Shown one piece after another: positions 412 through 44,918 of a stretch of 44,918 nucleotides of DNA. This DNA comes from a virus. The position numbers were made by a program, and so were the translations under genes. Within the stretch, counting starts at the first letter, position 1; each line of letters starts with the position of its first letter. Under the pieces are notes generated by a model. It was not told where the DNA came from, ran no database searches, and saw only the letters and a list, made by a program, of their open reading frames with translations. The stretch is taken from the IMG/VR virus record IMGVR_UViG_3300031251_000042, positions 1 through 44,918 of that record. One strand, 5' to 3'.

Positions 412-462
412 TATAGCGCCAAATGCAATTAGACGTTGCATGTGATTGCATTTGGCGCTATA
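412..462. promoter_or_regulatory. Operator pair of immunity variant A
   Basis: A perfect 18-bp inverted repeat lies between the divergent repressor and Cro-like genes. The left arm is 412-429 (TATAGCGCCAAATGCAAT) and its exact reverse complement is 445-462, with a 15-bp spacer. The half-site TTGCAT occurs again in the spacer at 436-441, and TATAGCG recurs at 474-480. This position and symmetry are what is expected of operators shared by CI and Cro. The sequence has nothing in common with the operator of the second immunity region at 44339-44407. Confidence 0.75.
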
Positions 463-464
463 AC
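436..464 (+). promoter_or_regulatory. Candidate early promoter (PR-like), variant A
   Basis: TATAAC at 459-464 matches the sigma-70 -10 box at five of six positions. TTGCAT at 436-441 is a weak -35 with a 17-bp spacer. The promoter overlaps the inverted repeat, so a bound repressor would block it, and it reads toward the Cro-like gene at 498. The weak -35 keeps confidence modest. Confidence 0.4.
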
Positions 465-497
465 GTATGTATGTATAGCGGACGGCTAAACGGAAAA

Positions 498-698
498 ATG
501 ATTACCGAAGTGAAGCAAACAAAGGGAATTACCCACTATTGCCTTGCAGGGCGTTTAGGGGTTTCGCCAAGCCTCTTGAGTCAGATGGAACAGGGTTACT
601 TGCCGCCCAGGAATCGTGAACGGATTCTTGGGGCGTTAGCCGCAGAAATAGGGGTCAGCGTTGCCGCGCTGTTCCTCCCTGAGGCCATAACAGCCTAA
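498..698 (+). CDS. Cro-like small HTH regulator, variant A
   Basis: This 66-residue protein is almost entirely one helix-turn-helix domain (LAGRLGVSPSLLSQMEQGY, residues about 17-35), followed by a short hydrophobic C-terminal helix. It is divergent from the repressor across the palindromic operator, which is the usual Cro arrangement. The start at 498 is chosen because it begins the HTH fold and follows AACGGAAAA. A longer frame from 423 would start inside the operator. No equivalent protein sequence is seen in the second immunity region, where a different HTH gene occupies the same place. Confidence 0.7.
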   Translation: MITEVKQTKGITHYCLAGRLGVSPSLLSQMEQGYLPPRNRERILGALAAEIGVSVAALFLPEAITA

Positions 699-780: not shown

Positions 781-1026
781 ATGCAGATTGAGCTTTCAAA
801 AGTAATTCAACGTCGAGACCGGACGATTATCGTTGTCGAGGCCATGAACGATATTCGACCTGTCTTCACTCCCACGGAGCAGTACGAGGGCACCCTCGAA
901 GAAGTGGAACGGAAACATATCAAATTCGTGTTGGACGCCGCGCAGACGCTTGAAGAGGCCGCGGGCATCCTTGGGATTAACCTGTCCACGCTTTGGCGGA
1001 AACGTCGCACGTACGGGCTGGAGTGA
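781..1026 (+). CDS. Fis-type (HTH_8-like) DNA-binding protein
   Basis: The protein has 81 residues. The C-terminal half (about 45-80) reads as a Fis/NtrC-type HTH: helices around AQTLEEAAGILGINLSTLWR and a final RRTYGLE, as in the DNA-binding tails of bacterial enhancer-binding proteins but without an AAA+ domain. The ribosome site GAGGGTGGAG lies just upstream. It occurs only in immunity variant A, because the second cassette runs straight from its Cro-like gene to the following gene. A role as an early transcription activator or repressor is inference. Confidence 0.6.
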   Translation: MQIELSKVIQRRDRTIIVVEAMNDIRPVFTPTEQYEGTLEEVERKHIKFVLDAAQTLEEAAGILGINLSTLWRKRRTYGLE

Positions 1027-4239: not shown

Positions 4240-5040
4240 ATGGCAAGGATAAATTTTGAGGATGACGTCGAAGCTCAGGATGAGTTTTGGCGTTTATTGG
4301 AATTGATTGGCGGCGATCGAGATAAGGCATTGGGGAGGCTCCTGAGATTCTTTAGAATCGCTCAAAAGGCATGGGGGAGGGGTGAGCCCATGTCAGGGGA
4401 TGACCTCCGATCTAAGGGCTTTTCTGACATGATCGAAAGCGGATGGGCTGTCCCATTCGATGAGGGTTTTCACGCGCTGGGGGCCAAGAAGCATTTTGAA
4501 TGGTACCGGCAAAAAGTTGAAGCGGCGAAAAAGGGCGGTGAGGCTCGGTCTGAGAAATTCGGCTTTGGACGAAACGTGCCTATAGGGTCCCGTTCGGGTG
4601 CCGAAACTGATTTCCGGCAAGCGGAACTTGATTCCGCAAGCCCTCTTGCTCCTGTTCCCGCTCCCGTTCCCGCTCTTGCTCTTTCTCCTGTTCAAAAAAC
4701 AAATACAAATGCGCGCGCGTGTGTCTCGGAGCATATCCAGGACTGCATCCAGGAATGGGAAGCGACGTTGAAGCATTTCGAGATTGGGCGTCCAATCGGG
4801 GAACGGGATGAAGTCGCAATAGGTCAAGCTGTCCAACGCTATGGGGCTGATTGGGTAAAGCTTGCCTTCCTGGGCGCCAGGAAACAGACCAAAGGCAAGA
4901 CGTTTGACCCGAAGAATTTTGTCTCGCTGAGCATCTACCTGCACCGTGATCGCATTGAGCGGCTTGTGAATATCGGAGCCGGCAAAGAATCGGCCGACGG
5001 CGTCGACTGGACGAAAGTGTTCGGATCGGAGGTCGCATGA
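4240..5040 (+). CDS. Putative replication initiation protein (phage O-like)
   Basis: The protein has 266 residues. The N-terminus (1-100) resembles winged-helix N-domains of phage replication proteins (INFEDDVEAQDEFWRLLELI, then GDRDKALGRLLRFFRIAQKAW). A Pro/Ala-rich linker follows (about 135-148) and then a C-terminal helical domain. It sits just before a helicase-loader-like gene, as lambda O precedes P. The linker is encoded by 12-bp repeats followed by an A-rich stretch, so the origin may lie inside the gene. Assignment rests on position and general likeness, not on a definite motif. Confidence 0.5.
   Translation: MARINFEDDVEAQDEFWRLLELIGGDRDKALGRLLRFFRIAQKAWGRGEPMSGDDLRSKGFSDMIESGWAVPFDEGFHALGAKKHFEWYRQKVEAAKKGGEARSEKFGFGRNVPIGSRSGAETDFRQAELDSASPLAPVPAPVPALALSPVQKTNTNARACVSEHIQDCIQEWEATLKHFEIGRPIGERDEVAIGQAVQRYGADWVKLAFLGARKQTKGKTFDPKNFVSLSIYLHRDRIERLVNIGAGKESADGVDWTKVFGSEVA
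4642..4710 (+). repeat. Short tandem repeats next to an A-rich stretch: possible origin
   Basis: Units of 12 bp (CCTGTTCCCGCT 4651-4662, CCCGTTCCCGCT 4663-4674, then degenerate copies to 4693) encode the Pro/Ala linker of the putative initiator. They are followed by the A-rich CAAAAAACAAATACAAAT. Iterons beside an AT-rich segment inside the initiator gene is the lambda origin plan. The repeats may equally be plain low-complexity linker DNA. Confidence 0.3.
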
Positions 5041-6344: not shown

Positions 6345-6514
6345 GTGAGCCTGTAATTCAAAAAAAGAAACATAAACCGAGCCTTTGGCAGAAGGGCTAC
6401 AAGCCGTGCCTAAAAGGCTGCGGAAAACTTGTGATGAATCGAGACATGATTTGTCAGCCTTGCAAAAAGATTCCAGCTCGGAATGGCATCCAGGTGAAAG
6501 GGGCTACTGGTTGA
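6341..6514 (+). CDS. Small cysteine-rich zinc-binding-like protein
   Basis: The protein has 57 residues with two cysteine pairs (CLKGC and CQPC) about 17 residues apart, in a basic context, consistent with one zinc knuckle. The ribosome site AGGAGG is ideal and lies inside the end of rusA, fixing the start at 6341. The function is unknown; a nucleic-acid-binding role is likely from charge. Confidence 0.6.
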   Translation: MSEPVIQKKKHKPSLWQKGYKPCLKGCGKLVMNRDMICQPCKKIPARNGIQVKGATG

Positions 6515-7179
6515 GAGAGCGCTTGACGCCAGATCAGGCCATCAAGTTTTTAAAGCGGGCTAAACTGTCTGCGAGTCGAATGGGATGGGTTAACGATGCT
6601 GAAGATATTGCTCAAGAAGTGCTTCTCAAGTTCTGCGAAGGCAGGGGTCAACACCAGACCATTGATCAAGCAGTTGGAGATCTTATTCGAGGAAAATATC
6701 GAGTGCTTGGGTTTAGTCGCAATGAACATCGGAGACAGCGGCTCCGAATGGTCCCAGTGGAGGACGCACGAGGCGTTGCGGCTCCTGAGGCAATCGGAAG
6801 AGATTTTGAGAACATTATTGGAAGCCTGCAAGGGTTAGAGAGGGTCATGGTTAAGCTGCGTTATGAGTGGGGATTCACAGCACGGGAGATTGCAGATTGT
6901 TTCGGAGTTACTGAGAGCCGGATTAGTCAAAGGCTCAAGGGAATACAAAAAGGCTTATCACTCGAAATGGCGCTCGATGAACAAAGACCGGATCAGGTTG
7001 TACGCTCAAAAGCAGAACTTGAAGCCTGGCGTGAGAGAGAAAAGGAACGCCTCGTGTCGGGCTTACTTCCGCCGGCGACCGCCGGGATGGAATGCCCAGA
7101 GGATCGCGAAATGGCGGAGGGAAAATTCTGGGAAGTGGAAATTGATCATGGCGCGAGCTTCCCGGAATGGTTTGCATAA
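6511..7179 (+). CDS. Phage-encoded sigma-70-like factor
   Basis: The protein has 222 residues from a TTG start that overlaps the previous stop (TTGA, 6511-6514). A region 2-like segment (MGWVNDAEDIAQEVLLKFCE, about 24-43) and a region 4-like HTH (LRYEWGFTAREIADCFGVTE, then SRISQRLKGIQKGL, about 116-149) are visible. It could redirect host RNA polymerase to middle or late promoters. The last 70 residues have no family likeness and overlap another long frame (6977-7402), so the true C-terminus is uncertain. Confidence 0.65.
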   Translation: MRERLTPDQAIKFLKRAKLSASRMGWVNDAEDIAQEVLLKFCEGRGQHQTIDQAVGDLIRGKYRVLGFSRNEHRRQRLRMVPVEDARGVAAPEAIGRDFENIIGSLQGLERVMVKLRYEWGFTAREIADCFGVTESRISQRLKGIQKGLSLEMALDEQRPDQVVRSKAELEAWREREKERLVSGLLPPATAGMECPEDREMAEGKFWEVEIDHGASFPEWFA

Positions 7180-13840: not shown

Positions 13841-14200
13841 ATGCAAGAAAAGACCAGAGACCATTTTGAGATCATCCGTGGCGATACGGCCGTCATTCCA
13901 ATCTGGATATTTAGGCGCTCTTCGCGCGATTCCGATGCCCGTTATCCTGTGATTTTGACGTCTGACATGACATTTGAGGTGATTTTACCCGGTGGGGTGA
14001 GTGCCACGACAGCCGGTGCTCAGGTAACGTTTGTTGCTGGATCGGTTCCGTACATCATAGCGAAGTTTTCGACGACGCAAACGCCGCTCCTCACCGTGAA
14101 AAAGTTCGCCACGATTGTCGTGAGAGTGACCAAAGCGGACGGAACCGTGAAGACCTACCAAAAAAAGAAGGTATTAGACATTGTCGATCGAGATAATTAA
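13841..14200 (+). CDS. Hypothetical fibre-associated beta protein
   Basis: The protein has 119 residues. The opening FEIIRGDTAVIPIWIFRRSS and the later TSDMTFEVILPGG resemble small phage proteins beginning with an adaptor-like domain, as also in 35685-36053 (IEQGTTFNLLIPPI). It starts immediately after the previous stop (TAAATG), so translation is coupled. Confidence 0.45.
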   Translation: MQEKTRDHFEIIRGDTAVIPIWIFRRSSRDSDARYPVILTSDMTFEVILPGGVSATTAGAQVTFVAGSVPYIIAKFSTTQTPLLTVKKFATIVVRVTKADGTVKTYQKKKVLDIVDRDN

Positions 14201-14462
14201 AAAACTATACGTCCGCGTTGAATACGAAGGTATTCCAAAAGCCAAACAGGTCGAACGTGACCTGATTGAAGCCGCACTCCGCGCGACTGATGGCAACAAA
14301 ACGCGCGCTGCTCAGGCATTGGGTATCTCGCTTCGGGGCATCAGAAATAAGGTGATCGAATACGGTTTAAGTGAATTTAAAATCGAAGCTTATTCAAGAA
14401 AAGTTCAAACGGGCTCAGGAGGAGACTTGGCACATGGAAGTGCCGCTTTCCAAACGGAGTGA
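14181..14462 (+). CDS. Fis-type HTH DNA-binding protein
   Basis: The protein has 93 residues from a TTG start preceded by AAGAAGG. There is no in-frame ATG before the fold. Residues about 23-63 are a strong Fis/NtrC-type DNA-binding domain (ERDLIEAALRATDGNKTRAA, then QALGISLRGIRNKVIEYGL). It is a standalone version without receiver or AAA+ domain, like the gene at 781. It lies at the border of the fibre and head genes, so a role in late transcription is possible. Confidence 0.65.
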   Translation: MSIEIIKKLYVRVEYEGIPKAKQVERDLIEAALRATDGNKTRAAQALGISLRGIRNKVIEYGLSEFKIEAYSRKVQTGSGGDLAHGSAAFQTE

Positions 14463-43156: not shown

Positions 43157-43549
43157 CTATTTTTTTATGATCTGTGATTCAATGGGTTTTCTGAACATCC
43201 AGACGACACCAGCCAGCGTTGCTAGAGGGCCAAAAAACATAGTTAGACCTTCGATTGGCCTTCCTTCTCGAATCAGAACGATTGCTCCAATTAAGCCAAC
43301 CAAGATGATCACAAAAGAGGTGAGCTGCCCGATCAATTTTGACCACCGCTCAGATCTGTCATTCGCGTGACGATTTTTTTGCTCATCCCGCGCCATGGTG
43401 AGGATCTCTCGCGCGGCGGTCGGAACTAACTGGTTCCAGTGCTCGACAAGGATGGGATTTGGAAGGTTGTCGGTGATGCCAATTGTAACGGATTGGTTCC
43501 CGTCAGAGTCCTGCGTGGCCTCGATGAGCATTTTATTTTTGTCAGACAT
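43157..43549 (-). CDS. DUF2335 membrane protein
   Basis: The protein has 130 residues. NPILVEHWNQLVPTAAREIL, then MARDEQKNRHANDRSERWSK and two transmembrane helices (LTSFVIILVGLIGAIVLI and LTMFFGPLATLAGVVWMF) match DUF2335, a family common in prophages with no settled role. It lies next to the repressor on the same strand and is probably expressed in the lysogen. Confidence 0.75.
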   Translation of the reverse strand: MSDKNKMLIEATQDSDGNQSVTIGITDNLPNPILVEHWNQLVPTAAREILTMARDEQKNRHANDRSERWSKLIGQLTSFVIILVGLIGAIVLIREGRPIEGLTMFFGPLATLAGVVWMFRKPIESQIIKK

Positions 43550-43853: not shown

Positions 43854-44333
43854 TCATGACTTCCGGCGCTTTCGATCTTGCTGCTCGTCTGCCTCGTTTT
43901 CCTCGATCGCTTCAATGGCGTGCATGAGGTGCCTGCGTCCCACCGGACCCAGCCGGGCTACACGGGCGAGTAGGGGGTCCCTAAGCGAGGGTACTTCCGT
44001 TTTTTCGACCTGAATTGAGGCGGACTTGAGCCGCTCGATCTCCTGGGCCTGTTCTGCGATTTTTTGGGCGAGTTCAAGGATACCGGGGGATGAAAAGGTT
44101 TCTTTCGGAGCCAGGTCGGGGTCTAGGAATAGGTGGGATTCTGGAACTCCGAGTGTTCGAGCAATTGCGGCTAAGTTCTTGCGTTCGGGCCAGCTTCTAC
44201 CTCGCTCTATGTCACGATAAGTTGGAAAGGGGATATTTGCCTTTTCTGCAAAAGCTTCTTGCGAGCGAAACCCTTTCGACTTGCGTAAACGTACGAGATT
44301 ATTAAATAGAGTTTCCTCAAGTGTTTTCAACAT
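43854..44333 (-). CDS. CI-type repressor, immunity variant B
   Basis: The protein has 159 residues. The XRE HTH is at 10-68 (RLRKSKGFRSQEAFAEKANI, then PFPTYRDIERGRS). From about residue 84 it is identical to repressor A, including a coiled-coil-like linker (LELAQKIAEQAQEIERLKSA), and a basic tail. The DNA-binding half and its operator are unrelated to variant A, so the two should not cross-immunise. There is no ribosome site; the -10 box TATAAT (44344-44339) lies six bases before ATG, so the message is probably leaderless, like lambda cI from PRM. Confidence 0.85.
   Translation of the reverse strand: MLKTLEETLFNNLVRLRKSKGFRSQEAFAEKANIPFPTYRDIERGRSWPERKNLAAIARTLGVPESHLFLDPDLAPKETFSSPGILELAQKIAEQAQEIERLKSASIQVEKTEVPSLRDPLLARVARLGPVGRRHLMHAIEAIEENEADEQQDRKRRKS
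43949..44075. repeat. Terminal direct repeat 1, right copy
   Basis: This is an exact copy of 1-127. Its flank to the left (43854-43948) supplies the end of the repressor that is missing from the left copy, with the reading frame preserved. Confidence 0.95.
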
Positions 44334-44338
44334 TTACA

Positions 44339-44407
44339 ATTATATATGGTTTGGCCGTGCATTGTAGTCGCTCGAACCATTCTTTTATATTGCAGAATGA
44401 ATGGTTC
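44339..44407. promoter_or_regulatory. Operator and promoter region of immunity variant B
   Basis: A 9-bp perfect inverted repeat GAACCATTC (44374-44382) / GAATGGTTC (44399-44407) with a 16-bp spacer, and a third related half-site ATGGTTT at 44346-44352, form the operator. ATGGTT-x2-GCCGT also occurs as a direct repeat near 44346 and 44401. The minus-strand -10 TATAAT is at 44344-44339. On the plus strand TATATT (44386-44391) with TTGTAG 18 bp upstream may serve the Cro-like gene. None of these motifs occur in operator A. Confidence 0.65.
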
Positions 44408-44455
44408 AGCCGTATATTGGTTTTCATGAGAAGCAAGCGACTTAAGAGAATAAAC

Positions 44456-44701
44456 ATGGAGCTGGTCGAATCCAAAATGATCGAGAAGGGTCTGAATCGT
44501 GCGGATCTAGCTGAGATACTGGAAATTAATCTTTCCACGTTATGGAGACTCCTCACCGGCCATACCAGGGCGCGCTACGTGTTCTTAGCCGCCTTGGCTC
44601 ATACTCTTGGGATAAGCGTATCTGAGCTGCTAGACGTGCCAGCAAATTCTGGTTGCTGTCCTCGCTGTAATTTTAAACTGGAAGAGCAGAAAACAGCCTA
44701 A
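44456..44701 (+). CDS. Cro-like HTH regulator, variant B
   Basis: The protein has 81 residues. The HTH is NRADLAEILEINLSTLWRLL (about 15-34), followed by a helix and a C-terminal CCPRCNF cysteine motif that may bind zinc. It is divergent from the repressor and replaces the unrelated gene at 498 of variant A. ATG 44456 follows AAGAGA; ATG 44426, ten codons earlier, is possible. Confidence 0.65.
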   Translation: MELVESKMIEKGLNRADLAEILEINLSTLWRLLTGHTRARYVFLAALAHTLGISVSELLDVPANSGCCPRCNFKLEEQKTA

Positions 44702-44785
44702 TAACGCGCCTCATATAACAATATTTCATTTTGATTACAAGTGTCAAGTTGACGCGAATGGATAACTGCGTTCAAAGGGGGAAAA

Positions 44786-44918
44786 GTGGAAAATGAAATC
44801 TGTGAATGGTTCGATAGGTTTTGGAAAGAACCCATCAACGGTATTGCATCGGAGATTGAAGGATTGAGTTCAGAGCATCGAGCTGAGATTCAGCAGTACG
44901 CGGTCATCAGAATCGCTG
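44786..44918 (+). CDS. Small early protein, variant B (cut by window end)
   Basis: A GTG start follows AAAGGGGG. After six variant-specific codons (MENEIC) the sequence is identical to the 1036-1335 gene from its codon 30. If base 44918 is joined to 1238 the frame continues to 1335, giving 76 residues. The function is unknown. Confidence 0.6.
   Translation, partial: MENEICEWFDRFWKEPINGIASEIEGLSSEHRAEIQQYAVIRIA
44804..44918. repeat. Terminal direct repeat 2, right copy
   Basis: This is an exact copy of 1123-1237, running to the last base of the window. It marks where cassette B rejoins the common sequence. Confidence 0.95.

Follow-up and report, generated by a model that had tools for sequence, protein, structure and literature searches.

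Alternative immunity cassettes at the two ends of a temperate myophage contig, a probable case of sister phages joined by assembly

The window analyzed here, the whole 44,918-bp stretch of IMG/VR record IMGVR_UViG_3300031251_000042, most probably (around 0.7) represents two temperate myophages of one lineage with different immunity modules, present as a mixed population and unrolled into a single sequence by assembly at k = 127. One cassette (A1) lies at the start of the contig and the other (A2) at its end, and both most likely stand in one linear contig because the sample contained the two sister phages and the assembler placed their sequences one after the other. The two cassettes would thus belong to separate, coexisting DNA molecules.

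Repeats, inserts and backbone

The cassettes are framed by two exact repeats, and any further direct repeat of the window is 28 bp long at most. The left anchor (L, 127 bp) corresponds to the 3' half of the repressor gene, and is found at 1-127 beside A1 and at 43949-44075 beside A2; the right anchor (R, 115 bp) is found at 1123-1237 beside A1 and at 44804-44918 beside A2, where it reaches the contig end. Both repeats had been described in an earlier sequence-only reading of this DNA and were reconfirmed as identical. Between the anchors lie 995 bp unique to A1 (128-1122) and 728 bp unique to A2 (44076-44803), and a DNA comparison of these inserts found no match longer than 10 bp. The same reading had called them unrelated, which holds for the DNA but not for the repressor N-termini, where tblastx aligned a colinear stretch of 69 aa with 35% identity, as in distant homologues. 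Terminal redundancy of a single phage was ruled out because the interior of the two end copies differs.

When base 43948 is joined to base 1, the full A1 repressor frame is restored (157 codons including the stop), and the junction of 44918 with 1238 restores the frame of the A2 form of the gene at the right anchor (R gene, 77 codons including the stop), just as had been proposed from the sequence. The 42.7 kb between the anchors (1238-43948) carry one temperate myophage gene set, with genes for an excisionase-like protein, a tyrosine integrase, a C5 methylase and the small and large (GpA-type) terminase subunits, and structural genes for a lambda-type portal, a major head/protease protein, head decoration, tail sheath and tube, tape measure and baseplate. 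This combination of integrase, head, packaging and contractile tail genes is that of a temperate tailed phage (myovirus). Since the gene set is single, the natural reading would be that the genome is circular and measures 43,948 bp in the A1 form or 43,681 bp in the A2 form, and the contig fits a complete genome from a circular map, cut within the immunity region.

Two further backbone genes deserve mention. The frame at 6385-7179, in the early region, weakly matches the RNA polymerase sigma factors of PHROG 1740 (E 3.6e-9). The product of 43157-43549, on the minus strand, is a membrane protein assigned to PHROG 3996 (moron/host takeover), and its match to DUF2335 is sub-threshold; the gene has the same orientation as the repressor gene, lies downstream of it, and is possibly expressed in the lysogen. 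Searches for tRNA and Rfam matches found none.

Repressors, operator candidates and exchange points

Both cassettes encode, on the minus strand, an XRE-type repressor N-terminus, divergent between A1 and A2 (about 35% identical as proteins). The A1 repressor begins at a GTG, with a second GTG 6 codons downstream, and its 5' part covers 1-376, the remainder being found at 43854-43948 across the join. The A2 repressor (159 aa, 43854-44333) has an HTH N-terminus (HTH_3, E 1.7e-10) and shares residues 87-159 with that of A1, the DNA being identical from residue 87 onward. A profile search of the A2 repressor, whose C-terminus is common to A1, gave HTH hits only and no match to the S24 peptidase domain, so that the protein falls outside the definition of LexA/CI autocleavage. 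A single-sequence structural model of low confidence (pLDDT 65) showed a short helical C-terminus, with helices up to residue 69, a low-confidence linker at about 70-82, and helices at 83-104 and 118-158. According to this model, the left crossover is placed near the boundary between the repressor HTH domain and the shared C-terminal helices, so that the repressors have different DNA-binding domains and a common C-terminal region, which may serve for dimerisation.

Candidate operators were located in each cassette between the minus-strand repressor and a plus-strand Cro-like gene, and their sequences are different. That of A1 (411-463) has perfect 19-nt inverted arms (411-429 and 445-463), with no comparable score in 100 shuffles. 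The A2 dyad (44374-44407) is weaker, with arms GAACCATTCTTT and AATGAATGGTTC paired at 11 of 12 positions and one of 100 shuffles reaching an equal score. Promoter scans of both cassettes stayed near chance level. When the whole window was searched for further copies of the A1 arm or of the 17-base A2 site, allowing up to 4 mismatches, only their own dyad partners were recovered and, with no full match elsewhere in the window, each candidate switch looks self-contained. As a separate observation, the right anchor opens with 11 bases (GAATGGTTCGA, at 1123-1133 and 44804-44814) that recur on the minus strand within the A2 operator candidate, at 44372-44382, and the 9-mer GAATGGTTC, present in both A2 dyad arms and at the start of the right anchor, is absent from the rest of the window. 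The shared bases may mark a further, third operator site of A2 that lies in the R gene, may reflect microhomology where the exchange took place, or may be due to chance.

The A1 Cro-like HTH gene (423-698, plus strand) matches PHROG transcriptional regulators and, weakly and below the Pfam cut-off, HTH_31 and HTH_3; translation probably begins with the ATG at 498, because 423 falls inside the dyad. The A2 Cro-like HTH gene (91 aa, 44426-44701, plus strand) matches HTH_26 and HTH_31 above the cut-off on the longer frame 44321-44701, and has relatives of about 40% identity in other phage contigs. The proposal that each version has its own repressor DNA-binding domain, operator and Cro-like gene is therefore borne out in both cassettes, the operators as candidate dyads. 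Only A1 carries a Fis-type HTH gene (781-1026, plus strand; HTH_8, E 4.7e-9), with no counterpart in A2 and with a 55% relative in phage contig L059 that adjoins a relative of the gene at 4240-5040. In the backbone, the gene immediately preceding those for terminase (14181-14462) shows 48% identity over 50 aa to a small HTH protein of contig L061, which also matches the A1-only Fis-type gene, and it is possibly a second regulator of this kind. The R gene lies on the plus strand, with an A1 form of 99 aa (1036-1335) and an A2 form whose 5' part (44786-44918) resumes at 1238-1335 past the join; it gave no useful family match and none among phage records. The right exchange point is located close to the start of this gene.

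Assembly geometry and competing explanations

Contig ends of length maxK remain at graph branches in metaSPAdes and MEGAHIT assemblies, and a maxK of 127 is common in metaSPAdes (PMC10914622). Taking maxK as 127, the left repeat has exactly this length at a branch; in a toy k = 127 graph of two local haplotypes the branch likewise fell exactly at L, in agreement with the coincidence between repeat and k-mer size pointed out in the sequence-only reading. An A2 path merged at R would share 127 bases in such a graph, and the right repeat measures 115, which suggests that the A2 path ended as an unmerged tip; tips ending within R were uncommon in the toy runs, which do not predict the exact tip end. 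The best reading of the contig is a closed loop (L-A1-R-backbone-L, the A1 phage) followed by an unmerged tip (L-A2-R', the A2 phage), and this arrangement accounts for the contig start, the order of its parts and a right repeat below 127.

Under this explanation, the A1 phage, with a circular map of about 43.9 kb, would carry repressor, operator and Cro of type A1 plus the extra Fis-type HTH gene, and the A2 phage (about 43.7 kb if the backbone is the same) the repressor, operator and Cro of type A2. In either phage, lysogeny would be kept by repressor bound to the operator that separates its own gene from the divergently oriented cro, and the two phages are proposed to be heteroimmune because their HTH domains and operators differ. 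Module exchange probably took place by recombination at two sites, one inside the R gene and the other where the 3' halves of the repressor genes are homologous. The assembler, as we infer it, used a de Bruijn graph with k = 127: the 127-mer L would have been both start and end of a closed loop representing the A1 phage, to which the A2 path would then have been added as a tip ending 115 bp into R, before a possible merge.

Metagenome assembly collapses small strain differences, and a single consensus is therefore no evidence that the backbones are identical. The earlier interpretation of a swappable block in a mixed population unrolled by assembly is supported by the anatomy of the cassettes and by the k = 127 geometry, but its "otherwise single consensus" is not, as the DNA linking A2 with the backbone amounts to 127 bp at its left side and 115 bp at its right side. 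These short links, together with the unmerged A2 path, are what would be expected if A2 came from a more distant phage sharing a few hundred bases at L and R and had been joined to the A1 backbone as a partial chimera. We consider this unlikely, since both anchors are exact, the repressor frame is continuous from A2 into the backbone, and different DNA upstream of A2 should have produced a branch to the left of L, where the contig continues unbroken.

A tandem heteroimmune double lysogen, with an A1 and an A2 copy integrated head to tail in the chromosome of one host and then collapsed during assembly, is likewise an improbable source. The order A1-backbone-A2 would suit two consecutive prophages, and transient polylysogens of two similar phages are known in Sulfitobacter, where tandem integration was proposed, but those polylysogens were unstable (PMC7305329). 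Moreover, the contig is unbroken through the integrase/att and terminase regions and contains no recognised host gene, and an equal copy number of both cassettes would give A2 no reason to stop unmerged at R. Far less credible is that both cassettes lie in cis in one genome, near each other and each between copies of L and R: the contig as written does hold both, and the DNA past either end lies outside it, but such a genome requires one more 3' end for the repressor gene and one more for the R gene, and the contig contains neither, whereas closure into a simple circle is enough to complete the two genes. It is equally hard to credit a single phage lineage that keeps two cassettes between shared repeats, one as reserve immunity, and switches by recombination. 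Two sister phages in a mixed population therefore remain our preferred explanation.

Relatives and known immunity systems

IMG/VR searches returned no relatives for either anchor, for the baseplate hub or for the repressor, and one weak match for the integrase; these searches may omit the records nearest to the window. Terminase relatives were found at 53-56% identity, with no repressor match and no immunity-region genes. Searches of phage records gave generic HTH matches only (about 29-42%), and no relative with either cassette was found in searches that may leave out records very near the window.

In lambdoid phages the immunity segment comprises the CI repressor, the operators and Cro. Here, a different repressor DNA-binding domain, operator candidate and Cro-like gene lie between common flanks, as in an exchangeable immunity region of the lambda/434 type. 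In lambda imm434 and lambda imm21 a non-homologous immunity segment was exchanged on a common backbone (PMC9119081), and in our case the repressor, the candidate operators and the Cro-like gene appear similarly swapped. However, the lambdoid hybrids are laboratory recombinants of enteric siphoviruses, whereas this is an uncultured myophage with the left exchange point inside the repressor gene, the C-terminal half of which is common, and with an A2 repressor lacking an S24 peptidase match. The Sulfitobacter phages phi-A and phi-D are similar temperate phages that are largely near-identical but have dissimilar regulators, with XRE repressors devoid of a LexA/peptidase domain, and each able to infect a lysogen of the other (PMC7305329). 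Our proposed pair resembles them in its differing regulators and in an XRE-type repressor without peptidase match, although phi-A and phi-D are isolates of tested biology (79% average identity) and ours is deduced from one contig. In Cluster A mycobacteriophages, heteroimmunity was ascribed to recognition-helix changes with matching operators, and the binding sites are dispersed, 23-36 in number (PMC3029335), in contrast to the present cassettes, within which the only full matches to each dyad occur.

Most likely, then, this is a case of immunity swapping in a phage that has not been cultured, a process long known from lambda, 434 and 21 and from phages A and D of Sulfitobacter. If this is right, the swapping has been caught inside one natural sample, with the exchange points placed to the base. 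As both repressors retain the same C-terminal region, cells infected by the two phages could form mixed dimers, and each immunity might be weakened by them. On this reading, k-length end repeats of metagenome contigs can also expose sister phages that assembly conceals.
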